Program-made: the position numbers and the translations under genes | The notes under the pieces: model-generated | Database searches by the model: none | Told to the model about the DNA's origin: nothing | The model's input: the letters and a program-made list of their open reading frames with translations, nothing else | In this document: piece after piece, positions 19,058-60,261 of the stretch | How positions within the stretch are numbered: the first letter of the stretch is position 1 | Layout: each line of letters opens with the position of its first letter | Assembly: GCF_001747095.1 (NCBI RefSeq) | Contig: NZ_MDGP01000001.1 | Location: forward strand, 1,719,001-1,783,000 | Origin: Roseivirga sp. 4D4 | Lineage (GTDB): Bacteria > Bacteroidota > Bacteroidia > Cytophagales > Cyclobacteriaceae | Reading direction: 5' to 3' | Length of the DNA: 64,000 bases

Positions 19058-19128
19058 TTAATTGTTCTTTTAAGTTTTCAGAATAGTTTGAAACAACCGT
19101 TTTCAAAGGATGATATATGGACCCGGCA

Positions 19129-21528: not shown

Positions 21529-21531
21529 GGC

Positions 21532-23925
21532 TTATTCGTCTCTTAGTGAAGTAACTGGATTCGCAGTGGCTGCTCTTAAAGACCTATAACCCGTAGTCAA
21601 TAATGCTAATACCATAGAGGCAACAATGGTAGTAATGAAAATTAGAGGACCTATAGAAATGCTATACTCATACTCTTGTAGCCATGAGGTCATGCCCAAA
21701 TACCCCAAAGGGGCTGCAATCAAGAAGGCTAGGCCGACAAGCTTCGCAAACTCGCCACTAAAGTTGCCTACCAAACTAGAAACAGTTGCTCCTAAGACCT
21801 TTCTGATACCAATCTCCTTTGACTTTTGGTTGGCCATAAAGGCCACTAAACCGTACAAACCGAGGCAACCGATAAAGATTGAGATACCTGCAAAAGTGGT
21901 CATTAGTTGAGACATCTTACGCTCGCTTTCATAGTACTGGGCTATAGACACATCTACAAACTCATAGTCGAACTCATATTCCTCATGCATGCCCACCCAT
22001 ATTTCTTCAAGTGCAGCAACAATCTCTTCTGTACGTTCGGCATTGATCTTGAGTCCTATGGTCTGGTTTTGGCCTGCATCTGAAAACATTGCCATTGGCT
22101 CGATTGCATTTGACAGCGTAGTGGCATGATAATCTTCTACCACACCCACGATCGGGTACTTATTACCCCAAACATTAACAGTTTCACCAATGGCCTCAAG
22201 TGGATCCTTAACGCCTGCCTTTAACAAGAAGGATTGGTTTACCACAAACTGATTTATGGTATCACTCTTAGCCACCCAATCACCAGCCAACATCCTAAGA
22301 CCATAAGTTTCCCTGTAAGTCTCGTCAACTCTTTTAAACTGAATGTCGATTTCCTGTCTTGTGGTATCGTCTGTATAGTAATAGGCATTTGTTCCCATCA
22401 CGGAGCCAGAAAAAGGAGGATGTGAGGCTACAGATGCCACTTTAACACCCGGTATATCTGCTATTTGAGACTTCCATAGTTTTTGTTTGTCCAAGTCATT
22501 CTCCGCCATTCTAAAGAACATAATGTTCTCCTTTTCATAGCCCATATCCACACTCGTGAAGTAATTCATCTGACGCACAGCTACTATAGTCCCAAAGATC
22601 AAAAGCTGGCAAAGGAAAAACTGGAACACCACCAATGCTCTTCTTAAGGTCATGTTACTTCCCTTCTTATCTAAAGCTCCTTTCAAGGCATAGATTGGTT
22701 TAGCACCAGATAGGACAAACGCAGGGTAAAGGCCTGCCATGAGAGACACGAGCACTAATACAGCCAGCAGGTACAAGATTAGGGAAGTATCGCTCAGCAG
22801 CGAAAAACCTATTTCTAACTCAAAAAACTCATTGATTACTAAAGGAATTAACCTTTCTGTCAATGCAACAGAAACAAGAAGGGATAAAAACGTGATAGCG
22901 AATGTCTCTCCTAAGAAGCGAGCCACCAGTTGTTTGCGGCTACTGCCCAAAACCTTACGCATACCTACCTCCTTGGCTCTTTTAACCGCCATTGCCGTAG
23001 ACATGTTGATGAAGTTAAAGCAAGCCGTGACTATTAAGAATATTCCAATAGCGACATATGTCCAAAGCATTTGCTTTGAAGCACTACGACTAAAGGTTCC
23101 GAAACGATCGTCAAAATGATACTCACTAAATGGTGCCAAAAGAAAAGTCCTTTCTTCACGCTCTTCCTTGCTCCAATACTTCTCTACAAAGTCTGGAAAC
23201 TGGGCATCGACATCTTCGGGATCAGTAGATTCATCTAATTCAACAAAAAGCACATCGTTGCTGCTAATGCTTCCCCAACGCGTGAAACCGCTCTCTGCTC
23301 CTTTAGTTTCCATTGACATAAATAAGCCAAAAGGGAAATCAGAATCCTTACGCTGATCTTCCAAAACTGCAGTGATCAATAAGTCCTGCTGCTTATTCAG
23401 CCTAATGGTTTTGCCCACAGCAGATTCATCCGGAAAATACTTTTTAGCCAAGGTTTCACTCAAGGCAGCCATATTAGGCTCTTTAAAGGAGTTCTCAACT
23501 GCTCCTTCCAGCACCTTCCAGTCAAACATTTCAAAGAAGCTTGGCTGTACGTATACCAATTCGGGAGATTCCTCATAATATTGAATACTACCATCTTGAC
23601 CTGTGATGGAAATTAAACCGTACATCTCATGAGAAATGAGTGTTGAATTGGTAATACCAACAATGTCTTCAGCCACAGCAGCCCTCATAGGCAGAGGCAC
23701 TCCGCCACCAGGATATTCATTACCATCGATATAATCAATATGACCGACCCGATAGATACGATCAAGTTTTGAATGATACTGGTTAAAACTCAGCTCTTCC
23801 TTTACGATCATAAACATGATCAGACTACAAGTAATACCAAGTGTTAATCCTGAAATATTGATCAAGGTAAAAGCTCTATTTCGAGCGAAATTTCTGAGAA
23901 GAATCTTTAAATAGTTCTTAAGCAT
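21532..23925 (-). CDS. Duplicated FtsX/MacB-type permease (array gene 3)
   Basis: The 797-residue paralogue ends NPVTSLRDE. Its second FtsX domain has GLVAFMANQKSKEIGIRKVLGA-like sequence, shared with genes 6 and 7, so these three form a subgroup. It is the first gene of the second transcription unit. A 171-bp gap upstream holds a terminator for gene 4, a pair of 17-bp regulator sites and a sigma-54-like promoter 48 bp before the ATG. Confidence 0.9.
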   Translation of the reverse strand: MLKNYLKILLRNFARNRAFTLINISGLTLGITCSLIMFMIVKEELSFNQYHSKLDRIYRVGHIDYIDGNEYPGGGVPLPMRAAVAEDIVGITNSTLISHEMYGLISITGQDGSIQYYEESPELVYVQPSFFEMFDWKVLEGAVENSFKEPNMAALSETLAKKYFPDESAVGKTIRLNKQQDLLITAVLEDQRKDSDFPFGLFMSMETKGAESGFTRWGSISSNDVLFVELDESTDPEDVDAQFPDFVEKYWSKEEREERTFLLAPFSEYHFDDRFGTFSRSASKQMLWTYVAIGIFLIVTACFNFINMSTAMAVKRAKEVGMRKVLGSSRKQLVARFLGETFAITFLSLLVSVALTERLIPLVINEFFELEIGFSLLSDTSLILYLLAVLVLVSLMAGLYPAFVLSGAKPIYALKGALDKKGSNMTLRRALVVFQFFLCQLLIFGTIVAVRQMNYFTSVDMGYEKENIMFFRMAENDLDKQKLWKSQIADIPGVKVASVASHPPFSGSVMGTNAYYYTDDTTRQEIDIQFKRVDETYRETYGLRMLAGDWVAKSDTINQFVVNQSFLLKAGVKDPLEAIGETVNVWGNKYPIVGVVEDYHATTLSNAIEPMAMFSDAGQNQTIGLKINAERTEEIVAALEEIWVGMHEEYEFDYEFVDVSIAQYYESERKMSQLMTTFAGISIFIGCLGLYGLVAFMANQKSKEIGIRKVLGATVSSLVGNFSGEFAKLVGLAFLIAAPLGYLGMTSWLQEYEYSISIGPLIFITTIVASMVLALLTTGYRSLRAATANPVTSLRDE

Positions 23926-23973
23926 AGTGTTGTTGTTTTGAATCAGACTTTGGGCCGATATTCGAATTCTATG

Positions 23974-23989
23974 ACAATTAGAATGCCAA
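23974..23989 (-). promoter_or_regulatory. Sigma-54-like promoter for permease genes 3-1
   Basis: The minus strand reads TTGGCATTCTAATTGT. The GG of the -24 box and the G of the -12 box are separated by the canonical 10 bases; the -12 box is TTGT rather than TTGC. It lies 63 and 86 bp from the two upstream 17-bp sites, exactly as at the gene 7 promoter, and would start transcription about 37 bp before the gene 3 ATG. Confidence 0.6.
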
Positions 23990-24027
23990 ATCTATAAATA
24001 CCTATTTATCAGGTATTTACAAATAAA

Positions 24028-24056
24028 AAACGATTCCATAAGATACAGAATCGTTT
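24028..24056 (-). terminator. Terminator after permease gene 4, overlapping a regulator site
   Basis: A 9-bp perfect stem AAACGATTC/GAATCGTTT with an 11-base loop is followed, on the minus strand, by TTTATTTG. It would end the transcript of genes 7-4. Its upstream arm shares bases with the distal-unit site at 24052-24068. Confidence 0.6.
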
Positions 24057-24068
24057 GTTTTTACTACA
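24052..24068 (-). promoter_or_regulatory. Regulator site, copy 1 (genes 3-1)
   Basis: The plus strand reads CGTTTGTTTTTACTACA, matching the site at 33827-33843 at 15 of 17 positions. It is followed after 6 bp by the conserved second site. A likely upstream activating sequence for the NtrC-type regulator encoded at 33875. Confidence 0.6.
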
Positions 24069-24074
24069 GTAAAG

Positions 24075-24091
24075 TGTTTGTTTTTGATACA
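24075..24091 (-). promoter_or_regulatory. Regulator site, copy 2 (genes 3-1)
   Basis: The plus strand reads TGTTTGTTTTTGATACA, identical over 17 bp to 33850-33866. The identity extends three bases upstream (AAG), giving a 20-bp direct repeat between positions nearly 10 kb apart. It has a partial dyad TGTnT...AnACA on the minus strand. Confidence 0.65.
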
Positions 24092-24096
24092 CTCTT

Positions 24097-26451
24097 TTAT
24101 TCGTTTCTGAGTACTTGTGCAGGATTGAATTTATTGGCCCTAACCACTTGTAAGGACACTATTACAAGTACCAAAACTGTTGTAAGGCCTATAGCTGAAA
24201 TGAATTCAAAAGGTCCCGGTTCTATACGATATACAAACTGTTCTAACCAATCAATAATACTATAATAAACGATTGGTGCCGCCATCAGAAACCCGATAAA
24301 AATCATTCCTAAATAGCCCTTAGCAAATAAACTAAATACCTGCCTGAAGTTGGCTCCAAGAACTCTTCTCAAGCTAATTTCTTTCACCCGCTGTTCTATA
24401 GTAAATGTAGATAAGCCCATGAGCCCCAAGAGTGCGATGAAAATAGCAAGACCAGCGAAAGAAAGAAACAAGCTCCCAAGCCTAGATTCTGTTTTATAAT
24501 TGCTATCAAATTCTTGGTCTAAGAACTTGTAATCTAATGGTCTACCGGTATTAAAACTACCCCAGAGTTCTTCCATGGTAGTAACTGTCTCTTTGATATT
24601 AGTCGGGTTTAATCTGGTAACGAGGAAGCTTGAAACGTCTTTTTGCAATGCCACTCCAGTCGGTCTAATTTCACTCTTCAAAGATTCTCCATGAAAGTCT
24701 TGAATTACACCAATCACAGGATATTCATTGCCCCAAGCTTTCACTGTCTTTCCCTCAAAGGAATCCCATCCGAAAGCTTTGTAAGCAGACTCATTAATTA
24801 AAAGCCCTTTTGTATCCTGATCTGCAAACCCTCTGCCCTGCACTACTTTCATACCCATTGATTTGATAAAGTCTCGATCGGCATTATAGAAATCAAATAC
24901 AATGTTAATATCAAGGTCACTTTCTATGCTCTCATTATTCAGAAATACCAGATCTTGGCGATTGATGGTGTTATTAGAAAGAGAAGCTTCTTTTACACCA
25001 GAGATTTTCAATACCTCAGCCTTTAAAACTGCTGCATCATCATTGAACTCTCCATGTGTATTAATCTCTAGCAAATGCTCTCTATCATAGCCCAGGTTCT
25101 TGTTTTGGATGTAACTGAGCTGATGCTGGATGATGACTGTAGCGATAATCAGCAATTGAGCAATAAAGAATTGGGTCACCATTAAGCCCTTCTTGATCAT
25201 GCCCTTTGAACTTCTCTGATTATTCAATGCAACCAATGGCTTAGACCTCGAGAGTATAAATGCTGGATAAAGACCGGCAGCAATTCCAATAATCAGGGTA
25301 ATCCCAAAAGTGATGGCAAAAAACTCAATGGAGAGGTAATCCAAAACGATCTCCTTATCCATAAGGCTATTGAGATATGGCAAGCAACGTTCTGCAATTG
25401 CAAATGCTATCAAAGAACTGATAAAAACAAGCACCAATGACTCCAACAAGTAATATCTAGAGACTTGATTGGTTGACGCCCCGACTACTTTTCTCAATCC
25501 TACTTCCTTACTTTTCTTAATAGATTGAGCGGTTGATAGGTTTGTGTAGTTAATGATAGCGATCAGCAAGATTAGCACACCAATTGCGGTGAAAAGATAA
25601 ACATATCGGATATCACTGCTACCAAGAGTAGCACTGTCTAACCCTGACCTTAAGTGCAGATCAGTCAAATTCAACAAATGAAACGGTTTTTCTATGCTAC
25701 TTAAATTATAGAGCCACTCGAACATAGAGCCTTCTATCACTTTAGCCATTTGACTCCTTGCCAAATCAATGTCATGATCAGGACTCAAGAGCACCCAATT
25801 CATAGTTGGATAGTAGCCTCTTTCGGAATCAATCCTTGCGCTTCGCGAATCGAAATATGACTTACCTGAAAACAGAAAGTCAAATTGAATGCTAGAATTT
25901 GCCTTTAGGTTTTCAAAAATTCCACTTACGATGTAAGAATTCTTTTCATCAACTCGAATCGTTTGGCCGATGGCATCTTCCACTCGTTCGAAATATTTCA
26001 GGGCTGCTTTTTCTGAGACTATTGCCACGTCTGGTCTTTCTAAATCTGGATAGTCGCCCGAAATTAGATTGACATCGAACAGATCGAAAATACCAGGAGT
26101 TGTATAGATAGCGCTGTTATCATAAAAAGACTTCTCTCCATTAGAAACAAGAACGCTTCGATTTTGCGTACTCACCACTTCTTCAAACAGCGGTATACTC
26201 TCTTTCATTTCCGATGCCAATCTGTAAGGAACACGAGCTCCTTTACTAGCATTCTTACCTACTTCATGCCAGAGTAAAAAAACTGATTCCTTTCGGCTTT
26301 GGAATTGGTCGTAACTGAGCTCATCTCGAATAAACAGACTTATCAAGATTACTGTCGTCAAGCCAATGGTAAGTCCGCCTATGTTAAGAAATGAAAAAAG
26401 TTTTTCTCTTTTAAGCTTTCGCAGAAAGGTAATCAAGTAGCTCTTGAACAT
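24097..26451 (-). CDS. Duplicated FtsX/MacB-type permease (array gene 4)
   Basis: The 784-residue paralogue is the shortest of the seven and ends NPAQVLRNE. Coupling motifs are KEVGLRKVVGA and KEISLRRVLGA. It is the last gene of the unit that starts at gene 7: 11 bp from gene 5, then a terminator on its 3' side. Confidence 0.9.
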   Translation of the reverse strand: MFKSYLITFLRKLKREKLFSFLNIGGLTIGLTTVILISLFIRDELSYDQFQSRKESVFLLWHEVGKNASKGARVPYRLASEMKESIPLFEEVVSTQNRSVLVSNGEKSFYDNSAIYTTPGIFDLFDVNLISGDYPDLERPDVAIVSEKAALKYFERVEDAIGQTIRVDEKNSYIVSGIFENLKANSSIQFDFLFSGKSYFDSRSARIDSERGYYPTMNWVLLSPDHDIDLARSQMAKVIEGSMFEWLYNLSSIEKPFHLLNLTDLHLRSGLDSATLGSSDIRYVYLFTAIGVLILLIAIINYTNLSTAQSIKKSKEVGLRKVVGASTNQVSRYYLLESLVLVFISSLIAFAIAERCLPYLNSLMDKEIVLDYLSIEFFAITFGITLIIGIAAGLYPAFILSRSKPLVALNNQRSSKGMIKKGLMVTQFFIAQLLIIATVIIQHQLSYIQNKNLGYDREHLLEINTHGEFNDDAAVLKAEVLKISGVKEASLSNNTINRQDLVFLNNESIESDLDINIVFDFYNADRDFIKSMGMKVVQGRGFADQDTKGLLINESAYKAFGWDSFEGKTVKAWGNEYPVIGVIQDFHGESLKSEIRPTGVALQKDVSSFLVTRLNPTNIKETVTTMEELWGSFNTGRPLDYKFLDQEFDSNYKTESRLGSLFLSFAGLAIFIALLGLMGLSTFTIEQRVKEISLRRVLGANFRQVFSLFAKGYLGMIFIGFLMAAPIVYYSIIDWLEQFVYRIEPGPFEFISAIGLTTVLVLVIVSLQVVRANKFNPAQVLRNE

Positions 26452-26462
26452 AATCTTAGGGT

Positions 26463-28847
26463 TTATTCGTTTCTTAATGCATTGATAGGGTTTGCAATCG
26501 CAGTGCGATACGACCGAATCGTGACGATGACTAATATTGTGATGATAGCCATAACAGCCACACTAGCGAATGGCAATACTGATAGGTCTATATGATAAGC
26601 AAAGTCATTCATCCAACTAGAAACCGCATAGTAACTAATGGGAATGGATATAAATAGGGCGATGATGATGAGAACGACTACCTCCTTACTCAACAATGAG
26701 AGTATTTGACTCACAGAAGCCCCTAACACCTTTCTGATACCAATTTCTTTGATCCTCTGATCCAGCTTATAACTGATGAGACCAATTAAACCAAGGGTGG
26801 CTACAAATACAGAAAGCCCAGTGAACAATTTGATGATTTGCCCCAGCCTTGCTTCCCTCTTGAACAATTGATCGAACTGTTGATCAAAAAAGTAATAATC
26901 AAAAGGTGCATCTGATAGACCTGCATACGTATTACCAATCGATTCGAGCGCATCTTTCGGATTCCCCGAGAAGGCAATATTGATCTGTGAAGCATACACT
27001 CTATAAAAGAATACTACAGGACCGATCGCATTACTGAAATTCTGATAATGAAAGTCTTCTACTACCCCAATAACCTCAACCTCACGACCATTAAACCCTG
27101 CATCAAACTTTCTTCCCAGCACCTTGCCTCCTAATTTTTGAGCAAAGGACTGATTGATTACAGCAACTGTTCTCTCATCATCGATTTCAGGGTTGAAATT
27201 TCTTCCTTCGACTAACTTCATGCCCATCGTGGGTATAAATTGGTCGTCTGTGTATTTATATTGAATTCTTTGATATTCAGCATCCGGAACCAATTCAGAC
27301 ATACCACTCAAGGGGAGCTGATTAATCATACTATAATGACTGAATGAAACAGACTTTACATTGGCTTGTCTTAAGAGTTCCTGCCTAAGTGGTTCTCGGT
27401 TCTCATCCTCCTCACCCAATTGACTCTTACTGTTATCTACTACAATGACTCTCTCTTTATCAAAACCCAAATCCTTTTCTAAACTATACTGAAGTTGTTG
27501 TTGGGCAAAAAGTGAGAATACTGCCAACGAAAGAGAGATTACAAACTGAAAAACCACCAATCCATTGCGGAAGAGCTTACTCTTTTCACCAACTGAATAA
27601 CTGCCCTTTAATGCGGTAGAAGCGTTGATCCTAGTCAGGTAAAATGCTGGGTAAACTCCTGCCAATAAACCTGTAACAAGTCCTATAAGTGTAATCAATA
27701 ACAAAAGCTGAGGATGCTGAAAGGTATTGGCACCGAGCTCCTCTATGCCTACAACCTGAAGCCCTTGTAGCGCTGCTTCCGTCAGGCCAAAACTCACAAT
27801 AATGGCACATAAAGCTACGAACAGCGATTCTGCAAGAAATCGCTGAATTAATTGCCTCCGATATGATCCTAACACTGTTCTGACGCCAATTTCCTTGGCG
27901 CGTTTAGACGCCTGAGCAGTTGCCAAGTTCACATAGTTTATAGCCGCCAAAACAACTACAAAAAGTGCAATCGATATAAAAATGAATAAATACCTTCTAC
28001 TACCAGATTCAGAAGCTTCAAACTGGATATTCGACTCCAAGTGAACCGCTTTCAGAGGCATAACTAGTAGACCTGGTGTATAATCAGCCTTAAACGCTTC
28101 AAATGATCTTTCTTGACCAAAACGCTCATAATCGACCTTCATGAAAAGATCATTTATTCTTTGGTCAAGTGTCGCGGCCTCAGCCTTACTTTCGGTTTTG
28201 AAATAGCTGTAACCTGTAGTGAAGGAGTAACTATCCTTGATTCTTTCTTCGAATTCCCGAGGCAAGCGTGCCAGCACTGAAAACTTTAAAGAAGTATTGG
28301 TTGGTAAGTCTTCAACTACCCCTGTCACTTCAAATAAATCCTGAGATATCTGTGTGGCAAGTGTTATCTCCTGTCCCATTGGGTTTTGGTTACCAAAGAA
28401 CTTCGTAGCCATCGATTGGGTAATGATCAGACCGTTTGGAACAGATAATGCATCATCCATATTTCCATAAACCATCTGATGCTCAAAAACCTGAAAGTAT
28501 TCGTCAGTCGTATAGTAAACCGACTTGTCCACGAAACTCTGATTGTCTGTCAAAGTCAAAGTAGCTGATGGGCTTGGCATCAAGTTCACAATCGCATCTA
28601 TACCCGGTACGTCCTGCTTAATTTTGTTAAGGTGAGCTATAGATGATAACGCGAAGCTTCTCCCACTCAGCCTATAGATTGACTCATGATTCTTATAGTG
28701 TTGATCATAAGTAAATTCCTTCGACACGTATATACCGATGAGCAGCGCTGCAGCAAACCCCATAGCCAAGCCGCTAATATTAATAGCAGCATAGGCCTTA
28801 TTTCTCTTTAAGTTCCTGAGTATTGATGTGAGGTGGTTCCGAAACAT
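26463..28847 (-). CDS. Duplicated FtsX/MacB-type permease (array gene 5)
   Basis: The 794-residue paralogue ends NPINALRNE. Motifs are KEIGVRTVLGS in the first FtsX half and KEIGIRKVLGA in the second. The first periplasmic domain is distinct from its neighbours (RLSGRSFALSSIAHLNKIKQ region), so substrate contacts may differ. It is 1 bp after gene 6 and 11 bp before gene 4. Confidence 0.9.
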   Translation of the reverse strand: MFRNHLTSILRNLKRNKAYAAINISGLAMGFAAALLIGIYVSKEFTYDQHYKNHESIYRLSGRSFALSSIAHLNKIKQDVPGIDAIVNLMPSPSATLTLTDNQSFVDKSVYYTTDEYFQVFEHQMVYGNMDDALSVPNGLIITQSMATKFFGNQNPMGQEITLATQISQDLFEVTGVVEDLPTNTSLKFSVLARLPREFEERIKDSYSFTTGYSYFKTESKAEAATLDQRINDLFMKVDYERFGQERSFEAFKADYTPGLLVMPLKAVHLESNIQFEASESGSRRYLFIFISIALFVVVLAAINYVNLATAQASKRAKEIGVRTVLGSYRRQLIQRFLAESLFVALCAIIVSFGLTEAALQGLQVVGIEELGANTFQHPQLLLLITLIGLVTGLLAGVYPAFYLTRINASTALKGSYSVGEKSKLFRNGLVVFQFVISLSLAVFSLFAQQQLQYSLEKDLGFDKERVIVVDNSKSQLGEEDENREPLRQELLRQANVKSVSFSHYSMINQLPLSGMSELVPDAEYQRIQYKYTDDQFIPTMGMKLVEGRNFNPEIDDERTVAVINQSFAQKLGGKVLGRKFDAGFNGREVEVIGVVEDFHYQNFSNAIGPVVFFYRVYASQINIAFSGNPKDALESIGNTYAGLSDAPFDYYFFDQQFDQLFKREARLGQIIKLFTGLSVFVATLGLIGLISYKLDQRIKEIGIRKVLGASVSQILSLLSKEVVVLIIIALFISIPISYYAVSSWMNDFAYHIDLSVLPFASVAVMAIITILVIVTIRSYRTAIANPINALRNE

Positions 28848-28848
28848 A

Positions 28849-31272
28849 TTACTCGCTTCTAAGTGAATCTACAGGGTTGGAAGTCGCTGCGCTGAATGAC
28901 TTGATACCTGTTGTAAGCAGTCCTATCAATAGCGTAAACCCTATTGCAATTACAAAGACCCAAATGTTCAGGTCAATGCTATATTCAAAATCTGCCAGCC
29001 AGTCATTCATGAAGTAGTAACCCACAGGCGTAGCGATTAAAAAGGCGATAATAATTAGTGCCAATAGCTCTTTAGAAAATAGGTTTAGTATTTGGGGAAT
29101 TGTTGCGCCTAAAACCTTTCTGATTCCAATTTCCTTCATCTTCTGATTCGCCATAAAAGAGACCAAACCGTAAAGGCCAAGACAACCAATCAAAATGGCT
29201 ATGCCCGAGAATACTTGAAACAGTGTCAGCATGTTCGCTTCTTCTTCATAATTGGTCATTATTTCATCTGAAAGCACATTGTAGTCGAACAGAATCTCTG
29301 GATACTGCGCTGTCCATGCCTTCTCTACAGAGGCCATAAGTTCATTAAACTGAGTGTTCGAGCCTTCGAACCGAACGGCACCCTCATAGAAATAGCCAAA
29401 GTACTTGACCATAATCATTGGGTCGATTTTTTCTCTCAGACTTCTGTTATGGAATGCCTCAAACACTCCCACAATCTTCTTGTCTCCGGAAAAACCAGTT
29501 TGAATGGTTAAGCCGATCGCATCTTCAGGATTCTCAACTTCCATCAGCTTTAATATCTCTGTGGAAACCAATGCTTCAGTCAGGGTGTCTGTCTTGCTGA
29601 TGTCCCTTCCTGCCAAGAGTTCAATACCGTATAAATCAATATAGTTTTCGTCTATTACCTTAAACGCGACATCAAAAAGTGCGTCCATTTCAAGAGGAGC
29701 ATAAGCGAAGTTGGACCCGATATTAGAGTCACTCAATGGGCTTGCAAAAGCATAACTAACCTTCTCTACACCAGAAAATGTCATGAGTTCATTGCGAAGG
29801 GTACTGAGTTTATCACTTTCGTTTGTTGGCAACGGAAATGTAATAATAGAAGACTGTCTGAACCCCAGGTCACGCCCTTCGAAGTATTTCATCTGGGAAA
29901 TCACCACCAAGGTGCAGATCACCAATACCTGAGAGATGAAGAATTGAAAAATCACCAATCCTCTTCTGGTATTAATATTACCTGAAAGTGCCGATTGACC
30001 TTTCCCTCTTAATACCGACACTGGTTTTAGCCTTGACAAGATCAATGATGGATATAGCCCTGCGAGAAGTGTCACTCCCAAAATCACAGAGACCACTAAG
30101 ACTGCCAAAAGTGGATCATTTATTAAACCCAGGGATAACTCATAACCGATCACCTCACTGAGATTTGTCATTACCAATTCAGCGATCCCCATGGACAGTA
30201 CCATGGATAACAACGTGATCAGGAACGTCTCTCCTAAAAATTGGAACATTAACTGCCCTTTGTGTCCTCCTAAAACCTTTCGAATACCTACCTCCTTAGA
30301 CCTCTTAATGGCCAAAGCAGTTGAGAGATTAACGAAGTTGATACAAGCGGTCAGTATAAGAAAAAGAGCTATAGCAATCCTAAACGTATTTACCTCTGAC
30401 GACACGGCCAAATCGCCATATGTGTTGTAGGTCGGATCAAAATGAATATCAGACATTGCCTGCAGACTAAATGAGGTAGCATTCTCCGTCTCTGGAATAT
30501 ACTTTTTGACCATCTCTGGCATCACTTCATTAACCTGCTCAGGTTTTACATTTTCATTAATCAAAAAGTACACCTGGGCATTGGACGATGTCGAAGTCCA
30601 GGACTCTGGTTGATAGAAGTCAAAAACCTCATCAATAGCCTCATAGGCTATGATTATCTTAAAAGGTAATGAGGAGTTTTGAGGTGTGTCTTCTACTACG
30701 CCACTCACAAAAATTGTGAGTTCACTATTGAGCTGAATCTCCTTGCCCATTACGCGATCATAACCGCCATCGGTAACACCGAATAGTTTTTCAGCTAACC
30801 CAGCGGTGATCACAGATGCATTCGGCTTAACAAGCGCTGTTGAAGCGTCTCCAATGATCCATTCATAGTCAAATAGCTCGAAGAACTCCGGATCTGCGAA
30901 AGATATTCCATCACGTTGTTCATAGTGGATCCAATCGCCTCCAGCTCCTTCTACGCTCAATTGATTGTCTCCCACATAGAAGGTTCTTACTGGAAGGCCA
31001 AGATCTGGGTAATCGGTTTTAAATGCCTTTGCAAAGGGGTCTTGAATACCCGCCTCAAATTCTACTAGATTCGGGTTTTCGACTTTCTTAACAAAGCGAT
31101 AAAGTCTGTCAATTTTTGAATGGTGCTGATCAAAGCTCTTTTCAAAAACAACGATTTTGAAAAGCACCAATGCTGCACTAATTCCTAGCGCAAGACCAAA
31201 TACATTAATGATGGTGAAACTCTTATTTCTGATAAGGTTTCTTATGGCGGTTATGAAGTAATTCTTAATCAT
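28849..31272 (-). CDS. Duplicated FtsX/MacB-type permease (array gene 6)
   Basis: The 807-residue paralogue belongs to the subgroup with GLVSFMANQKMKEIGIRK in the second FtsX half, and ends NPVDSLRSE. The first half has KEVGIRKVLGG. The N-terminal part (IFEKSFDQHHSKIDRLYRF-type segment) is close to gene 7. It lies 14 bp after gene 7 and 1 bp before gene 5. Confidence 0.9.
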   Translation of the reverse strand: MIKNYFITAIRNLIRNKSFTIINVFGLALGISAALVLFKIVVFEKSFDQHHSKIDRLYRFVKKVENPNLVEFEAGIQDPFAKAFKTDYPDLGLPVRTFYVGDNQLSVEGAGGDWIHYEQRDGISFADPEFFELFDYEWIIGDASTALVKPNASVITAGLAEKLFGVTDGGYDRVMGKEIQLNSELTIFVSGVVEDTPQNSSLPFKIIIAYEAIDEVFDFYQPESWTSTSSNAQVYFLINENVKPEQVNEVMPEMVKKYIPETENATSFSLQAMSDIHFDPTYNTYGDLAVSSEVNTFRIAIALFLILTACINFVNLSTALAIKRSKEVGIRKVLGGHKGQLMFQFLGETFLITLLSMVLSMGIAELVMTNLSEVIGYELSLGLINDPLLAVLVVSVILGVTLLAGLYPSLILSRLKPVSVLRGKGQSALSGNINTRRGLVIFQFFISQVLVICTLVVISQMKYFEGRDLGFRQSSIITFPLPTNESDKLSTLRNELMTFSGVEKVSYAFASPLSDSNIGSNFAYAPLEMDALFDVAFKVIDENYIDLYGIELLAGRDISKTDTLTEALVSTEILKLMEVENPEDAIGLTIQTGFSGDKKIVGVFEAFHNRSLREKIDPMIMVKYFGYFYEGAVRFEGSNTQFNELMASVEKAWTAQYPEILFDYNVLSDEIMTNYEEEANMLTLFQVFSGIAILIGCLGLYGLVSFMANQKMKEIGIRKVLGATIPQILNLFSKELLALIIIAFLIATPVGYYFMNDWLADFEYSIDLNIWVFVIAIGFTLLIGLLTTGIKSFSAATSNPVDSLRSE

Positions 31273-31286
31273 AAGTTTCTAGTCTA

Positions 31287-33722
31287 TTATTCGTCTCTTA
31301 ATGAATTGACAGGGTTAGAAGTTGCCGATCTAAATACTCTGAAACCGACTGTGAACGCACCGATAACCAGAGTAGCCAGCACGCCCAGTATAAATACTCC
31401 GGCACCAAGCTGAATGTGGTAAACATACCCATCAAGCCATCCATTCATCATCAGATAGGCCAATGGACATGCGAACAAAAATGCTATCCCAATCAATGTC
31501 AATATCTCTTTTGAGAATATGCCTAGGATATTATTGATGCTCGCCCCTAATATCTTTCGAACTCCTATTTCCTTTACCTTTTGGTTAGCCATAAAGGACA
31601 CCAGTCCGTATAGTCCAAGACAACATATGAAAATGGCCATACCTGCCAGAACCTGGAAAAGGCTCGCAATCTTTTCTTCAGTTTCGTACTGCCCTGCAAT
31701 TCGGTCTTCAATAAAGTTATAAGTGAAGACATCATTCGAGAAGACCTCACTCCATATCGCATCAACTTGATCAACGATGGCTTGATAATTCCCCGTTCCC
31801 GTTAGGGATATGCCTCCTTCAAAGTATTGGGAAGGTCCTTTCATCATAAAGACTGGGTCAATATCAGATCGGAATGAACTGTTATGAAAGTCCTTTACTA
31901 CACCTGCTATATAAAATGATCGGTCATACGTGGTTTTATACCTCTGCCCTATAGCATCCTCTGGGCTTTCAAACCCTAAAGAACTGGCCAGTTTTTCGTT
32001 GATTACACTGTGATCTTCGGGAGCATCTTTTCCAAAGAAACTGCCAGCAACCAAGTCCAGGTCAAATAATTCACCATAGTTGTGATCTACATTTTTACGA
32101 TTGCTTCGAATACCATCATTATCTCCGTCACGCGGATCTTCGATCGTATCAATATTGTTTGTGTTTGATGCTCCAGGTGTCGCAATGAAGAAACTGATGT
32201 CATCAACCCCTGCAATTGAGGTGAGTCTTGATTTCAAAATCTCCATATTCTCTTCTGTGCGCTCTGGTACAGGGAAAGTCAAAACACCTTCTGACTTAAA
32301 GCCCAATGGTTGATTTCTCATAAAATCCATCTGAAATAAGACAACCAATGTACCGATGATCAATATTTGCGAAATCAAAAACTGAAACACGACTAAGCCT
32401 CTTCTAATTGAAAAGCTTTTCCCTCCAGACTTGGCAGTCAAACTACTATTCTTGATAGCATGTACAGGACTGTAGTTAGAAAGAACAACTGACGGATAGA
32501 AACCTGAGAGGAATGTCACAACGACTAGAAGTACTACCAAGAAGGCAATGGTAGATGGTTCAGAAAATAGGTTCAAACCAAGACTATAACCCAAAATAGG
32601 TTCTAACCTCATCAAAGCGGCCTCGCTGAGCGCAAGGGAAAGCAGGATTGCCATCAAGGTAATGATTGCCACTTCACCTAAGAATTGTGAGACAATTTGG
32701 CCCTTACCGCTACCTAATACTTTTCTAATACCAACCTCTTTTGCACGTTTCACCGACTGTGCTGTTGCCAGATTGATGAAATTTATGGCCGCTATGATGA
32801 TTAAGATTATGCCGATAATACGCATGCTGTCCAAGATGCTTTGATCTACATAGCCCCCTGCTCCCAACTCCGGATCTAAATGAATCTCTTTTAAAGGTTG
32901 AAGACCAAAGTATACTCCGGCTTCTTCGGCATCAATACCTATATGCTTTAGGTACTTGGTGGAGGAACTCTTTAACGAGGCCTCCGCCTGTGTTAAATCC
33001 TGGTTGACAGGAATCTTAATAAAAGTTCTGGTTGCTCCATTTCTTGTTCCCCATGACGTTAAGCCATTGGAATATGGGTAGATTCTCGCTCCCTCATAGA
33101 ACATCAGGAAATCAATTCCATAATCTGTATTTTTTGGTGGGTCGGCATAAACAGCAGAGATCAAGAGATCCAACTGATTTTCAAAAACTACTTTTTTCCC
33201 GATGATAGATTGGTAATTCGAACCATTCAGCCCAAAAAGCTTTTCAGCACCTTTTACGGAAAGTGCCATGGTATTTGGCTCACCTAGTAAGTCATTAGGG
33301 TTACCGGCAATGATTTCAAAGTCAAACATTTCGAAGAAATCAGGCTCGACAAACGCCATGTTATTGTCTTGCTTGATCTTCTTCTGAGCACCTTGTTCGT
33401 TTTCGTATTTGTAAACCCCATCCCAGTACCAGTGAATTCTTGATACTGCCCAATCAGGATAATCCATTTTGATGGCCGGCCCTAAGGGGTGCATTACGGA
33501 AGCCGTTCTTTGTATGTCACCATCATTCTCCTGAACTAGGTTAATGCGATATACCTGATCCGCATTTTGATGATGGCTTTCAAAGCTATGCTCAAATTGG
33601 GTAATCCGATAAATGATAATAGCACCAGAAATACCCAGGACCAACCCTAGAATATTGATCGTTGTGAAAACGCGGTTTCTCGCTAAATTTCGAATGGCTG
33701 TTTTGATGTAGTTCTTGAACAT
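31287..33722 (-). CDS. Duplicated FtsX/MacB-type permease (array gene 7, promoter-proximal)
   Basis: The 811-residue paralogue is the longest; it has GLVSFMANQKVKEIGVRKIL in the second FtsX half and ends NPVNSLRDE. It is the first gene of the array and diverges from the response regulator at 33875. The 152-bp gap carries a sigma-54-like promoter 26 bp before its ATG and a pair of 17-bp regulator sites further up. Function as a transporter or stress-sensing permease is inferred from the family only. Confidence 0.9.
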   Translation of the reverse strand: MFKNYIKTAIRNLARNRVFTTINILGLVLGISGAIIIYRITQFEHSFESHHQNADQVYRINLVQENDGDIQRTASVMHPLGPAIKMDYPDWAVSRIHWYWDGVYKYENEQGAQKKIKQDNNMAFVEPDFFEMFDFEIIAGNPNDLLGEPNTMALSVKGAEKLFGLNGSNYQSIIGKKVVFENQLDLLISAVYADPPKNTDYGIDFLMFYEGARIYPYSNGLTSWGTRNGATRTFIKIPVNQDLTQAEASLKSSSTKYLKHIGIDAEEAGVYFGLQPLKEIHLDPELGAGGYVDQSILDSMRIIGIILIIIAAINFINLATAQSVKRAKEVGIRKVLGSGKGQIVSQFLGEVAIITLMAILLSLALSEAALMRLEPILGYSLGLNLFSEPSTIAFLVVLLVVVTFLSGFYPSVVLSNYSPVHAIKNSSLTAKSGGKSFSIRRGLVVFQFLISQILIIGTLVVLFQMDFMRNQPLGFKSEGVLTFPVPERTEENMEILKSRLTSIAGVDDISFFIATPGASNTNNIDTIEDPRDGDNDGIRSNRKNVDHNYGELFDLDLVAGSFFGKDAPEDHSVINEKLASSLGFESPEDAIGQRYKTTYDRSFYIAGVVKDFHNSSFRSDIDPVFMMKGPSQYFEGGISLTGTGNYQAIVDQVDAIWSEVFSNDVFTYNFIEDRIAGQYETEEKIASLFQVLAGMAIFICCLGLYGLVSFMANQKVKEIGVRKILGASINNILGIFSKEILTLIGIAFLFACPLAYLMMNGWLDGYVYHIQLGAGVFILGVLATLVIGAFTVGFRVFRSATSNPVNSLRDE

Positions 33723-33747
33723 GGCTCGTCTCTTTTGATATTCTTTA

Positions 33748-33764
33748 TACTAATCCTGTGCCAA
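33748..33764 (-). promoter_or_regulatory. Sigma-54-like promoter for permease genes 7-4
   Basis: The minus strand reads TTGGCACAGGATTAGTA. GG and the -12 G are 10 bases apart as in sigma-54 promoters, with TTGGCAC a full -24 match and TAGT in place of TTGC. The upstream sites sit 63 and 86 bp away, the same as at gene 3. Confidence 0.6.
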
Positions 33765-33773
33765 ACAAATAAA

Positions 33774-33790
33774 TAACTGAAAAACAGTTA
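33774..33790. repeat. Small palindrome between promoter and regulator sites
   Basis: TAACTG-AAAAA-CAGTTA, a perfect 6-bp inverted repeat. A different palindrome (AAATACCT/AGGTATTT, 23996-24018) occupies a similar place at the gene 3 promoter. Whether either is functional is unknown. Confidence 0.4.
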
Positions 33791-33826
33791 CTTACAATAA
33801 ATCACAGTATCATTCATCAATATATT

Positions 33827-33843
33827 CGTTTGTTTTCAATACA
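33827..33843 (-). promoter_or_regulatory. Regulator site, copy 1 (genes 7-4 and regulator gene)
   Basis: The plus strand reads CGTTTGTTTTCAATACA. It lies 63 bp from the -24 box of the gene 7 promoter and 31 bp before the regulator's ATG, so it could also be used for autoregulation. Confidence 0.6.
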
Positions 33844-33849
33844 TTTAAG

Positions 33850-33866
33850 TGTTTGTTTTTGATACA
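33850..33866 (-). promoter_or_regulatory. Regulator site, copy 2 (genes 7-4 and regulator gene)
   Basis: The plus strand reads TGTTTGTTTTTGATACA, identical to 24075-24091. It is 8 bp from the start codon of the response regulator gene, so a bound regulator would cover its own gene's start. Confidence 0.65.
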
Positions 33867-33874
33867 GTTTTAAG

Positions 33875-35248
33875 ATGCCTAAAACGGAAGCCAAAATACT
33901 CGTTGTCGATGATGACATAGATATTCTCAACACCGCCAGAATGTACCTGAAGCAGCAATTCACGCTGGTTCAGATTGAGAATGATCCAACAAATATCCCT
34001 CTTCATTTTGAAAGAGAATCCTTCGACCTTGTCTTATTAGACATGAATTTCAGGAAGGGTGAAAATGATGGCTCAGACGGACTAAAATGGCTGAACACAA
34101 TTCTGAATATCGACCCAAATGCCATTGTTATTCTTATCACAGCTTATGGAGAGTTTGATCTGGCGGTAAAGGCCATTAAGGCTGGAGCTACTGATTTCAT
34201 TACCAAGCCATGGAAAAACGAAAAGCTCTTTGGTACCATCACCTCTGCCCTTCAATTGAGAAAGAGCAAATTGGAAGTCGACAAGCTTAAAAATACGCAA
34301 AAGACCATCTCTGGTGATATCGATCAGAAGTATGAGAATTTCCTAGGAGAATGCGAACCGATGCAAAGGGTATTTTCACTGATCGACAAGGTTGGTCCAA
34401 CCGATGCAAACGTGTTGATTCTGGGTGAAAACGGTACCGGCAAAGAACTAGCTGCCAGAGCATTACATAGACAATCTCTAAGATCCGATAAAGTCTTTAT
34501 TAGTGTAGATTTGGGCTCTGTCAGTGAGACACTTTTTGAAAGCGAGCTCTTCGGGCATGTCAAAGGTGCTTTTACAGATGCCAAAGAAGATAAGCCTGGG
34601 CGATTTGAGCTCGCTTCTGAAGGAACTCTTTTTTTGGACGAAATAGGTAACCTGTCGCTTCCCTTACAGGCAAAACTCCTAACCGTTCTTCAACAAAGAA
34701 AGGTCAAGAGAGTAGGTTCTAACAAAGAAATGCCCATTGACATTCGGTTGGTCTGCGCTACCAATATGCCGCTTTACGATATGGTAAAGGAAGGAACCTT
34801 CAGGCAAGATTTGCTTTATAGAATTAATACCGTTGAGTTGAGAATGCCATCGCTTGCTGAACGTAAAGATGATATGGAGCTTCTGGTCAGGCATTTTATG
34901 GATGTATATGGCAAGAAGTACAAAAAACCCAACATGCGTATTGATACCGCCACACTCAACAAACTTAAGCGTTATAACTGGCCAGGTAATATTCGCGAAC
35001 TTCAACACGCGATTGAAAGGGCCATTATTCTTGCGGATGGTAATAAATTGACAACCAACGACTTCCTATTACAGACCAGTAGTTCTGGTAAAAGTGAGGA
35101 CGCAGATACACTCAACTTGAGCGAAATGGAGAAACGCCTGATCCTTAAGGCGCTAGACAAAAATAACGGTAACGTCACTCGAGCGGCCAAAGAGTTAGGG
35201 CTCGATCGTCTCGCGCTTTACCGAAGGCTTCAGAAATATGGACTTTAA
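33875..35248 (+). CDS. NtrC-type sigma-54 response regulator
   Basis: The 457-residue protein has a receiver domain (residues 8-125, phospho-acceptor D56 in LVLLDMN, K in ITKPW), a sigma-54 AAA+ domain (Walker A GENGTGKE near 190, Walker B TLFLDEIGNL near 255, GNIRELQHAIERA) and a C-terminal Fis-type HTH (GNVTRAAKELGLDRLALYRRL). The sigma-54 contact loop reads GAFTDA rather than GAFTGA. With the kinase 14 bp downstream it forms a two-component pair, and by position and promoter structure it should activate the divergent permease array. Confidence 0.92.
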   Translation: MPKTEAKILVVDDDIDILNTARMYLKQQFTLVQIENDPTNIPLHFERESFDLVLLDMNFRKGENDGSDGLKWLNTILNIDPNAIVILITAYGEFDLAVKAIKAGATDFITKPWKNEKLFGTITSALQLRKSKLEVDKLKNTQKTISGDIDQKYENFLGECEPMQRVFSLIDKVGPTDANVLILGENGTGKELAARALHRQSLRSDKVFISVDLGSVSETLFESELFGHVKGAFTDAKEDKPGRFELASEGTLFLDEIGNLSLPLQAKLLTVLQQRKVKRVGSNKEMPIDIRLVCATNMPLYDMVKEGTFRQDLLYRINTVELRMPSLAERKDDMELLVRHFMDVYGKKYKKPNMRIDTATLNKLKRYNWPGNIRELQHAIERAIILADGNKLTTNDFLLQTSSSGKSEDADTLNLSEMEKRLILKALDKNNGNVTRAAKELGLDRLALYRRLQKYGL

Positions 35249-35262
35249 AGGACAAAAAGCAC

Positions 35263-36615
35263 ATGGTATCTAAACGTTTTGCCTTTCTAGTCATACTACG
35301 CATTGCATTGCTCATGCTGACTCTAACGGCCTTGGCATTTATTTTTGCGCGAACTGAACTCTTCTTTAACCAGATCATCCTATTGGGAGTGATCATTCTG
35401 CAAGTTTCAGAACTGATCCGGTTCATTACCCATACTAATCGGGAATTGGCAAAATTACTGATGGCCATTCGCTACTCAGATTTTTCCATCTCCTTCAAAG
35501 GCAACAAAAAGGGAAAGTCTTTCAAAGAACTTCAGGAAGCCTTTGTCGAAATCATCGAGGCTTTTAAAAAGGTAAGCGTAGAGAAAGAGGCACAGTTCAA
35601 ATTCCTTCAGGTAATTGTCGACAACTTAAAAGTAGGAGTTCTAGCCATCAAGGAGGATTACTCCATAGAACTGATGAACTCAGAGGCTCAAAACTTACTC
35701 AAAACGGCTACTCCAAACTACTGGAAACAACTGCAGCAACTCCTACCCCATTTTAGCCAGGAGATAACGGATATGGAGGACGCTGACAAGCGGCTGTTAG
35801 AACTTAATATTAAGGGAGAAAAATTACAGGTATCAGCACAAGTAAACCGTTTGAAGATTCTAAACTATCGGTACACGATAGTTACCTTCCAGGATATCAA
35901 GTCGGAAATTGAACAAAAGGAAATTGAGGCTTGGCATAAACTGATTCGCATCCTTACCCATGAAATCATGAATTCGGTTACGCCAGTGACATCGCTTACC
36001 GAGACCATGCTTATGCTCCTACAAGACGATGGCAGGCCTTTATCGCTGGAAGAATTATCTGAGGAAACCTTGGAGGATCTTCGCTTTTCCATGAAAACAA
36101 TTCAAAAAAGAAGCGAGGGCTTATTGCACTTTGTTGACGACTATAGACGACTCACACGAATCAAGGCGCTTGAACTAGAAGATGTACAGGTAAAAGGCAT
36201 GCTGGATGAAATGGCTATGCTATTAAAGGCAGAAGCCGAAAAGGACGGTGTCCGACTTAGTGTAAAGGCACCAGAATACTTATCGATTGCCATGGACAGA
36301 AAGCTTATAGAACAGGTCTTGATTAACTTAATCACTAATGCACGTCATGCACTTGAGGGCAAAGCAAATGGAGAAATACGAATAAATGCCTATTCAGATC
36401 AGCACCAAAAAATCATAGAAATCAAGGACAACGGTATCGGAATTGATGCTGCAAAAATGGAAGAGATATTTATTCCATTCTACTCCACGAAGCAACAAGG
36501 TTCAGGCATTGGATTAAGTTTGTCCAAACAGATTATGAAGAAACACAAGGGAGATCTGAGCGTCAAATCCCAAGTTGGCGATGGAGCCACTTTTTATCTT
36601 ACCTTCAAATATTAG
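35263..36615 (+). CDS. Sensor histidine kinase partner of the NtrC-type regulator
   Basis: The 450-residue protein has two N-terminal membrane helices (residues 7-29 and 37-55) with only a very short loop between them, so it probably senses the membrane itself or a partner rather than a periplasmic ligand. A PAS-like region lies near 112-210. The dimerisation/phospho-acceptor helix contains H233 (RILTHEIMNSVTPVTS). The ATPase has the N box NLITNARHAL, DNGIGI and GSGIGLSL. It is cotranscribed with the regulator. Confidence 0.92.
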   Translation: MVSKRFAFLVILRIALLMLTLTALAFIFARTELFFNQIILLGVIILQVSELIRFITHTNRELAKLLMAIRYSDFSISFKGNKKGKSFKELQEAFVEIIEAFKKVSVEKEAQFKFLQVIVDNLKVGVLAIKEDYSIELMNSEAQNLLKTATPNYWKQLQQLLPHFSQEITDMEDADKRLLELNIKGEKLQVSAQVNRLKILNYRYTIVTFQDIKSEIEQKEIEAWHKLIRILTHEIMNSVTPVTSLTETMLMLLQDDGRPLSLEELSEETLEDLRFSMKTIQKRSEGLLHFVDDYRRLTRIKALELEDVQVKGMLDEMAMLLKAEAEKDGVRLSVKAPEYLSIAMDRKLIEQVLINLITNARHALEGKANGEIRINAYSDQHQKIIEIKDNGIGIDAAKMEEIFIPFYSTKQQGSGIGLSLSKQIMKKHKGDLSVKSQVGDGATFYLTFKY

Positions 36616-38780: not shown

Positions 38781-48644
<9,864 letters not shown>

Positions 48645-48654
48645 GTCTTCCGAT

Positions 48655-49143
48655 TTAAGGTTTGATTGTGATAGTGAACAAATCCATGTATTCAGTAAAT
48701 GACTTTGGATATTGATCATTTTCTGCCCTTGTCAATTGAAGCAATGGCACCATTGATCTATTGTCGATAATTGATTCGCCAGGGTTGGCGATAAAATTTA
48801 TTAACCCAGAATTCCCGTCTGTTTTGATTTCCTGTTTCCAGGAAACTGTAATATCTGTTGAATTGGAATTTTCGATCTTTAGTTTCAAATACTGGGGCAG
48901 ATCTGCTGGTGCCACAGCAACTGCTTCACTATTAATCTCCGGAGTGACTTGAGCCACCTGATAACTAATCGTGACACCTCCTTCATCTTTTAGGAGTGTC
49001 CAGTCACTTTGTCCATAGGTTTGAAATGAGATTAGCAACAGGAATATGATGCTGAGGTTAATTCTTAAATGGGGGGCGAATAGATTACCCACCATCAAAG
49101 GGGCATTGATTAACGCCCCTTTGATTGGTAAAAAGGGTTTCAT
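48655..49143 (-). CDS. Small exported protein, upstream partner of the giant protein
   Basis: The 162-residue frame encodes a signal sequence (NLSIIFLLLISFQTYG before Q) and a mature part of about 120 residues, beta-rich with no known domain. It is 10 bp before the giant gene's ATG, so it should be cotranscribed. The start is uncertain: an ATG at 49143 has the first codons inside a perfect 11-bp hairpin, while the ATG at 49095 (MVGNLFAPHLRIN) lies just after it and gives a normal signal peptide. The later start gives 146 residues. Confidence 0.65.
   Translation of the reverse strand: MKPFLPIKGALINAPLMVGNLFAPHLRINLSIIFLLLISFQTYGQSDWTLLKDEGGVTISYQVAQVTPEINSEAVAVAPADLPQYLKLKIENSNSTDITVSWKQEIKTDGNSGLINFIANPGESIIDNRSMVPLLQLTRAENDQYPKSFTEYMDLFTITIKP
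49094..49125 (-). repeat. Perfect 11-bp hairpin at the start of the small exported gene
   Basis: ATCAAAGGGGC and GCCCCTTTGAT pair perfectly around a 10-base loop. No T run follows on either strand. On the minus strand the hairpin contains the candidate ATG at 49095, so it could control translation or stabilise the mRNA. Confidence 0.6.
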
Positions 49144-60177: not shown

Positions 60178-60261
60178 ATTATGTGTGTTTGTGTTAAAAA
60201 AGAAGCCCCAAATTAGAGACCTCAGCAAGCTGAAAGATAGTCACAATAAGTCATCGCAGTC

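Follow-up and report, generated by a model that had tools for sequence, protein, structure and literature searches.

Organisation of the locus

The window analysed here is a 64,000-nucleotide stretch of the Roseivirga sp. 4D4 genome (contig NZ_MDGP01000001.1, positions 1,719,001 to 1,783,000), in which an array of seven FtsX/MacB-type permease genes occupies positions 16685-33722 of the minus strand, with the genes of an NtrC-type response regulator and a histidine kinase placed divergently beside it. Two 40-bp site pairs (17 + 6 + 17 bp), oriented in the array direction, lie at 33827-33866 before gene 7 and at 24052-24091 before gene 3. Judged from sequence, these blocks very probably act as enhancers for the adjacent regulator, driving two sigma-54-dependent units, 7-6-5-4 and 3-2-1. 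The features concerned are as follows.

35263-36615, plus strand: histidine kinase, 450 residues, two hydrophobic segments near the N-terminus, almost without a loop between them
33875-35248, plus strand: NtrC-type response regulator, 457 residues (REC, sigma-54 AAA+ with GAFTDA, Fis-type helix-turn-helix)
33850-33866, minus strand: candidate distal enhancer site, TGTATCAAAAACAAACA, 8 bp before the regulator ATG
33827-33843, minus strand: candidate proximal enhancer site, TGTATTGAAAACAAACG
33782-33794, minus strand: IHF-consensus-like element TAAGTAACTGTTT (read on the array strand; 1 mismatch), lying between the enhancer sites and the -24 box
33748-33764, minus strand: putative sigma-54 -24/-12 box TTGGCACAGGATTAGTA, unit 7-6-5-4
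31287-33722, minus strand: permease 7 (MacB_PCD and FtsX, duplicated)
28849-31272, minus strand: permease 6
26463-28847, minus strand: permease 5
24097-26451, minus strand: permease 4, last gene of the predicted first unit
24075-24091, minus strand: candidate distal site of the internal enhancer, same sequence as 33850-33866 (TGTATCAAAAACAAACA), 5 bp past the gene 4 stop
24052-24068, minus strand: candidate proximal site of the internal enhancer, TGTAGTAAAAACAAACG
24028-24056, minus strand: terminator-like hairpin and T run, the 5' arm starting with the last five bases (AAACG) of the proximal site
24007-24019, minus strand: IHF-consensus-like element TAAATACCTGATA of the internal promoter, 0 mismatches
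23973-23989, minus strand: putative sigma-54 -24/-12 box TTGGCATTCTAATTGTC, unit 3-2-1
21532-23925, minus strand: permease 3, first gene of the predicted second unit
19129-21528, minus strand: permease 2
16685-19057, minus strand: permease 1

A preliminary description of this DNA had put forward the same layout before genes 3 and 7, and the analysis found the two pairs with their 6-bp spacers, each equally far from a -24 box. Each candidate enhancer consists of two 17-bp dyad-like sites 23 bp apart; the distal site (site 2 of that description) is the same at both places, as claimed, and the proximal site (its site 1; TGTATTGAAAACAAACG vs TGTAGTAAAAACAAACG) differs at 2 of 17 bases. The GG of the -24 box falls at 33762-33761 and 23987-23986, followed by N10 and a G at 33750 and 23975, so both places show the GG-N10-G(C) arrangement of sigma-54 promoters at -24/-12. 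The reported distances to the box, 63 bp from site 1 and 86 bp from site 2, were recovered at both promoters when counted from the T preceding GG. The NtrC-type regulator gene does stand beside one pair, its start being 8 bp away, and the genome contains one match to rpoN (PF04552, E 1e-56).

Within the window, the pair was matched twice with no mismatches and the next best match had at least 7; the closest match in 60 first-order Markov windows had at least 8. A genome-wide search for the motif pair, as proposed in the preliminary description (here with up to 3 mismatches across 29 fixed positions), returned only two places in 4,577,373 bases, both before array genes, and none for a reversed control pattern. 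Genome-wide uniqueness and the Markov-window control rule out a chance repeat, in agreement with the original judgement that such an origin was very unlikely. A sigma-70 consensus scan, which does not cover Bacteroidota promoters, gave no lead (26 promoter-like sites vs 45.1 in shuffles).

Conservation of the site pairs within the genus

The pair was present in 16 of 19 genus genomes, counting the genome under study, and ten of these carried two copies, separated by 5.3 to 21.8 kb where both were on one contig. The three genomes without a pair match comprised one with an inverted distal site and two at 80 and 84% completeness, and in four of the six single-copy genomes the locus lay at most about 5 kb from the contig end on the array side. 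In the inverted case (locus L076, gap of genome G018, the same stretch as L103) the palindrome TGTTTGTTTTCAAACA stands in place of the distal site. In 17/17 orthologs 5-8 bp separate the pair from the regulator start, and the pair shows at most one change in 15 of the 17 orthologous gaps (two in L078).

From the distal start to GG, 104 bp were counted in 17/17 regulator-side gaps, where the box had been picked by score inside an 80-bp stretch and not by distance, and in 9/10 second copies, with 105 bp in the tenth. Among regulator-side copies, the sites showed 93% pairwise identity, against 38% for the gap that follows, 56% for the IHF-like stretch and 68% for the box; the corresponding values for second copies were 77%, 46%, 54% and 72%. 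Length kept where letters drift is the mark of a working enhancer-promoter unit. Position 7 of the proximal site was A in 9/10 second copies and G in 17/17 regulator-side copies, a split which suggests that the two kinds of copy have long been kept apart.

Two predicted units and an overlapping terminator-like hairpin

Gaps between the array genes, from 7 to 1, measure 14, 1, 11, 171, 3 and 71 bp. The 171-bp gap between genes 4 and 3 holds both the second site pair and the hairpin AAACGATTC..GAATCGTTT with its T run. The stretch 24010-24100 folds better than 199 of 200 shuffles (z -3.2); a hairpin scan overall gave no excess (13 found vs 13.8 in shuffles). Ten second copies and seven of the regulator-side copies were examined for this structure, and a similar hairpin was recognised in eight of the former (one weak), its letters changed but still paired. 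The two second copies without it were L197, in which the upstream open reading frame (ORF) has the opposite orientation, and L208, and none of the seven regulator-side copies had one. The proposed split of the array into 7-6-5-4 and 3-2-1 is thus supported by the gene gaps, the second site pair and the terminator-like hairpin, all of which point to two units.

An IHF-like element in a fixed register

When promoters pooled from nine sets (the locus described here and its relatives, see below) were aligned on GG, a common dyad TAA..TG..CA..TTA became apparent, centred about 20 bp upstream. The IHF consensus is WATCARNNNNTTR. With at most one mismatch allowed, it was matched in one register in 48 of 90 promoters, all of them related and from one genus, and in the mirror register in 31, against a mean of 1.4 over offsets and a shuffled maximum of 4 (200 rounds). 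This set leaves out 6/14 promoters of group A, 1/15 of B, 2/16 of E and 1/13 of X, and the 48 in-register promoters belong to B, C, D, E, X and the second copies. The earlier proposal of sigma-54-like promoters gains support from this fixed-register element, together with the spacing fixed across relatives, the rpoN match and the adjacent NtrC-type regulator.

Permease, regulator and kinase genes

PF12704 (MacB_PCD) exceeded the Pfam cut-off in all seven permeases, and the FtsX domain was likewise present in permeases 1 and 7, the two tested for it. The same two proteins did not reach the cut-off of 622 for the ADOP duplicated permease TIGR03434 (241 and 249 bits, respectively) or that of 700 for DarB NF038008 (131 and 97 bits). 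None of the array genes was seen to encode an ATPase. MacB-type permeases are expanded genome-wide, with 150 scored PF12704 matches (often two per gene; 195 candidates), many in arrays, and most of the listed frames encode 790-920 residues.

The regulator scored over cut-off for PF00072, PF00158 and PF02954, corresponding to a REC, a sigma-54 AAA+ and a Fis-type helix-turn-helix domain. Its GAFTGA loop position reads GAFTDA, and GAFTDA or GSFTDA was found in 110 of 112 members of the regulator family examined. The variant replaced GAFTGA in 90/90 regulators of the groups A-F, D2 and X defined below; of the five remaining strong activators in the genome, four carry GAFTGA or GSFTGA. GAFTDA figures in a list of variants with which activity can be retained (PMC4641369). 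By hydropathy only, two hydrophobic stretches within the first 58 residues, joined by a minimal loop, were seen in 6/6 circuit kinases, and kinases of this shape may receive their signal through the membrane or the permeases, which we offer as conjecture.

Elsewhere in the window, all on the minus strand, are two giant surface-type proteins of 3312 (38781-48719) and 2156 residues (53758-60228) that carry Ig-like, HYR, laminin-G or DUF285/NHL/SprB repeats, with a secretion-system C-terminal sorting domain over cut-off in the latter and just below it in the former, and a hybrid two-component protein of 1304 residues (49418-53332; Y_Y_Y, HisKA, HATPase, receiver and LuxR-type helix-turn-helix).

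Sister circuits and their candidate operators

The genome holds 11 strong sigma-54 activators, six of them encoded next to a kinase gene, with a transport locus running divergently. These six circuits, and the candidate operators of all but the one in the window, are listed below.

Circuit A: seven permease matches; operator GTCCG-n4-CGGAC
Circuit B: at least eight permease matches (about 2 kb inside the B array lie outside the count); operator GTnTCA-n3-TGAnAC
Circuit C: the locus in the window
Circuit D: a beta-lactamase-fold gene and one permease; operator TGTTCC-n5-GGAACA
Circuit E: adaptor, ATPase and TolC, no permease; operator TGTTCG-n4-CGATCA with TGTgTTA..TGTACA
Circuit F: one permease; operator TGTTCTAGGTTGGAACA

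In a tree of the regulators, those of relatives being taken from among the matches listed, groups A-F were separated from one another, from D2 (sister of D) and from X, an extra group absent from this genome whose operator is TGCCCA-n4-TGGGCA. The tree does not include L087, whose frame is interrupted, nor L033-L036 or the duplicate loci L095-L109; no regulator ORF was obtained for L094, L189 and L190. At circuit D (L054, G000:C1:3001956-3005492), the beta-lactamase-fold serine hydrolase comes first and the single permease follows. Beside regulator E (L056, G000:C1:2249327-2252814), TolC, a DarD-like ATPase and a DarC-like adaptor are encoded without a permease; it is possible, as a conjecture, that this locus provides a shared exporter core for orphan permease arrays.

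Distal start and GG were 102-105 bp apart in B (for L160, using the second-ranked box), 103 in D, 105-106 in D2 and 103-104 in F (for L147, again using the second-ranked box); in E the distance was 103 from TGT in 14/16 cases, and in X 99-103 bp separated the dyad from GG. By these predicted sites, five of the six circuits share nearly the same promoter geometry. Operators A, B, D, E and F were each found at one place in their own genome (up to 3 mismatches, a threshold that weaker sites would escape). A de novo search for dyad pairs in all gaps returned the pair as top hit in 13/15 gaps of B, 8/8 of D and D2 and 10/17 of C; it missed the pairs of A, E, F and X, whose footprints were taken from alignments.

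Recognition helices differ group by group, and operator profiles were scored at 22 regulators from other genera (the E-type within 700 bp). Three of five regulators with an A-type helix had the A-type operator as their best-scoring match (z 9-10), with a fourth one weak (z 4.1); this operator ranked first in none of the remaining 17. In Reichenbachiella faecimaris, the regulator of L110 has the helix DRLALHRR, one residue apart from DRLALYRR here, and the gap upstream of it contains a dyad, the palindrome TGTTTGAAATCAAACA, 81 bp before GG, which is the register of the proximal site and shows the same TGTTTG half-site. This dyad fits binding by the adjacent regulator, short of proof. Overall, operator type appears largely to follow the lineage of the neighbouring regulator.

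Proposed mechanism and alternative explanations

Under the arrangement favoured here, the kinase (35263-36615) would phosphorylate the regulator (33875-35248), which would then assemble on the upstream activating sequences; an HU/IHF-family protein could bend the enhancer-promoter DNA at the element that precedes the -24 box by about 20 bp, and the ATPase of the regulator would open the sigma-54 polymerase by looped contact, at two promoters. The 7-6-5-4 transcript would stop at the hairpin built into the second enhancer. Since no more than 8 bp separate the first enhancer from the regulator ATG, occupation of that enhancer would probably also lower the regulator's own transcription, and such negative autoregulation is likely by analogy with PspF (PMC3709507). 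Six circuits of similar promoter geometry, each with different operator letters, would operate in parallel, and this difference in letters may let each two-component system address its own transporter locus.

Part of the evidence can be accommodated in other ways. If the pairs served mainly the autoregulation of the regulator-kinase operon, with the array promoters under other control, their position 5-8 bp from the regulator start in all 17 orthologs (the distal site being inverted in L076) would be expected, but not their recurrence before gene 3, far from the regulator genes and at an equal distance from a -24 box, nor the second copy in nine other genomes; the operators of other groups, moreover, lie about 20 to more than 400 bp from the regulator start with the box distance kept, and we regard this explanation as very unlikely. 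Occupation of the pairs by another DNA-binding protein, be it a repressor or a global regulator, is improbable as well: the pairs occur at only two genomic places and adjoin the regulator gene, and operator type largely tracks regulator lineage, even though several regulators share TGT/ACA dyads (PMC4641369) and moderate hits were obtained with several operator profiles at regulators of unlike helix. The paralogy of the array genes and the 90% identity of the two blocks in this genome would be compatible with a passive, functionless second block left by duplication of a permease gene and its upstream region. This we consider scarcely credible and have rejected, as the DNA beside the sites has drifted (47% identity between copies after the sites) while spacing, sites and box stay, and as proximal position 7 is A in 9/10 second copies vs G in 17/17 regulator-side copies.

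Several observations weigh against regulator-bound enhancers at sigma-54 promoters, or against the wider picture of parallel circuits with matched operators. The -12 end in the window reads GT, the consensus being GC, with GG and G kept. Group A has its pair about 12-16 bp closer to the box than the other groups do, and a recognisable operator footprint was not found in 6/14 A and 2/16 E orthologs; the distal site is lost in 1/15 B orthologs, and 3/13 X orthologs differ at 11-13 of 40 positions. Matches to the IHF consensus are off by 1-2 bp in A, D2 and F, the relatedness of the 90 promoters means that the in-register count of 48 overstates their independence, and the shuffles used both for this register and for the operators of other genera keep base composition only. 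Just one HU/IHF-family gene, of either the HU or the IHF type, exceeded the Pfam cut-off, and an IHF heterodimer is therefore not evident. Among the other genera, no A-type operator match was obtained for L085 despite its A-type helix, the B-type operator was found (z 9.8) at one of two regulators with a B-type helix and not at L166, and the E-type operator at none of eight regulators with an E-type helix within 700 bp. L165, L170, L188 and L090 scored z 4.3-6.1 to the B, D or F profiles despite unlike helices, and L110 escaped the C profile.

With these points considered, control of both array units by the adjacent regulator through the paired sites is the explanation we retain. A much more tentative extension, which we think rather doubtful as a whole, would derive six insulated sensor-transporter circuits from one ancestral sigma-54 cassette in which operator and helix changed together while promoter geometry hardly moved; each kinase, lacking an extracellular sensor, would read the membrane state of its own FtsX-type permeases, much as in Bce modules but with a sigma-54 regulator, the ATPase, adaptor and outer-membrane channel would come from E, and the enhancer-terminator would separate the units of an expandable array.

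Comparison with known systems

PspF and pspA of Escherichia coli have a divergent gene order, like the regulator and array here. As proposed for this locus, two enhancer sites are present, IHF assists activator binding and looping, and the enhancer-bound activator lowers its own expression (PMC3709507). PspF lacks a receiver domain and is restrained by PspA, whereas the regulator described here has a REC domain and a kinase; the presence of two promoters in one gene array, with a putative terminator inside one enhancer, is a further difference. The NtrC, ZraR and AtoC regulons share the REC-AAA+-Fis architecture, the paired dyad enhancers and sigma-54; unlike their regulators, the present one scored below every equivalog cut-off among the matches listed (best 25 of 90), and its predicted targets are FtsX/MacB-type permeases.

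Bce-type loci contain an OmpR-type regulator and an ATPase. The Bce-type modules (BceRS-BceAB) resemble this locus, so far as the hydropathy of its kinase indicates, in having a transporter beside a kinase without a sizeable extracellular domain, and differ from it in that a sigma-54 regulator takes part here and the array was not seen to contain an ATPase gene. To our knowledge, the many FtsX-type permeases that genomes of this kind carry in arrays lacking an ATPase gene have no assigned role. With the darobactin exporter DarBCD, the likeness lies in the matches of permeases 7 and 1 to DarB and in the DarD-like ATPase, DarC-like adaptor and TolC of the E locus; in contrast to DarBCD, all Dar scores here are below curated cut-offs and the parts are split over loci.

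In the Desulfovibrio vulgaris sigma-54 regulome, motifs specific to each of many regulators were described, several with TGT/ACA half-sites 9, 11 or 12 bp apart (PMC4641369); the part of that work considered here deals with mixed regulators and targets, whereas the circuits of the present genome are paralogous, with a common geometry and transporter type. A regulator family with nearly frozen geometry and changing operators is a data set for the DNA choice of Fis-type helices, and the pairing of regulator and operator predicts which kinase governs which transporter genes.

Sigma-54 control beyond Pseudomonadota has been called less explored, and sigma-54 promoters have been computationally predicted before FtsX-type permeases (COG0577) in Bacteroidia, Bacteroidota (PMC12316311). 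The relevant passages of that report name neither an operator nor a regulator or array, whereas the present analysis describes the enhancer pair, the regulator family and the layout; among the literature matches listed, titles and abstract openings did not mention such operators or arrays. A marine Roseivirga-group bacterium appears to switch on seven transporter genes from two matching control regions, and an enhancer overlapping a terminator would be a testable way to pack units within a gene array. Given that promoters of this type before FtsX-type permeases had already been reported by computation, the circuit layout is best seen as a new variant, and a well-supported one: its novelty lies in a locus that is one of six regulator-kinase loci with their own operators, in the IHF-like element of fixed register and in the overlap of candidate enhancer and terminator.

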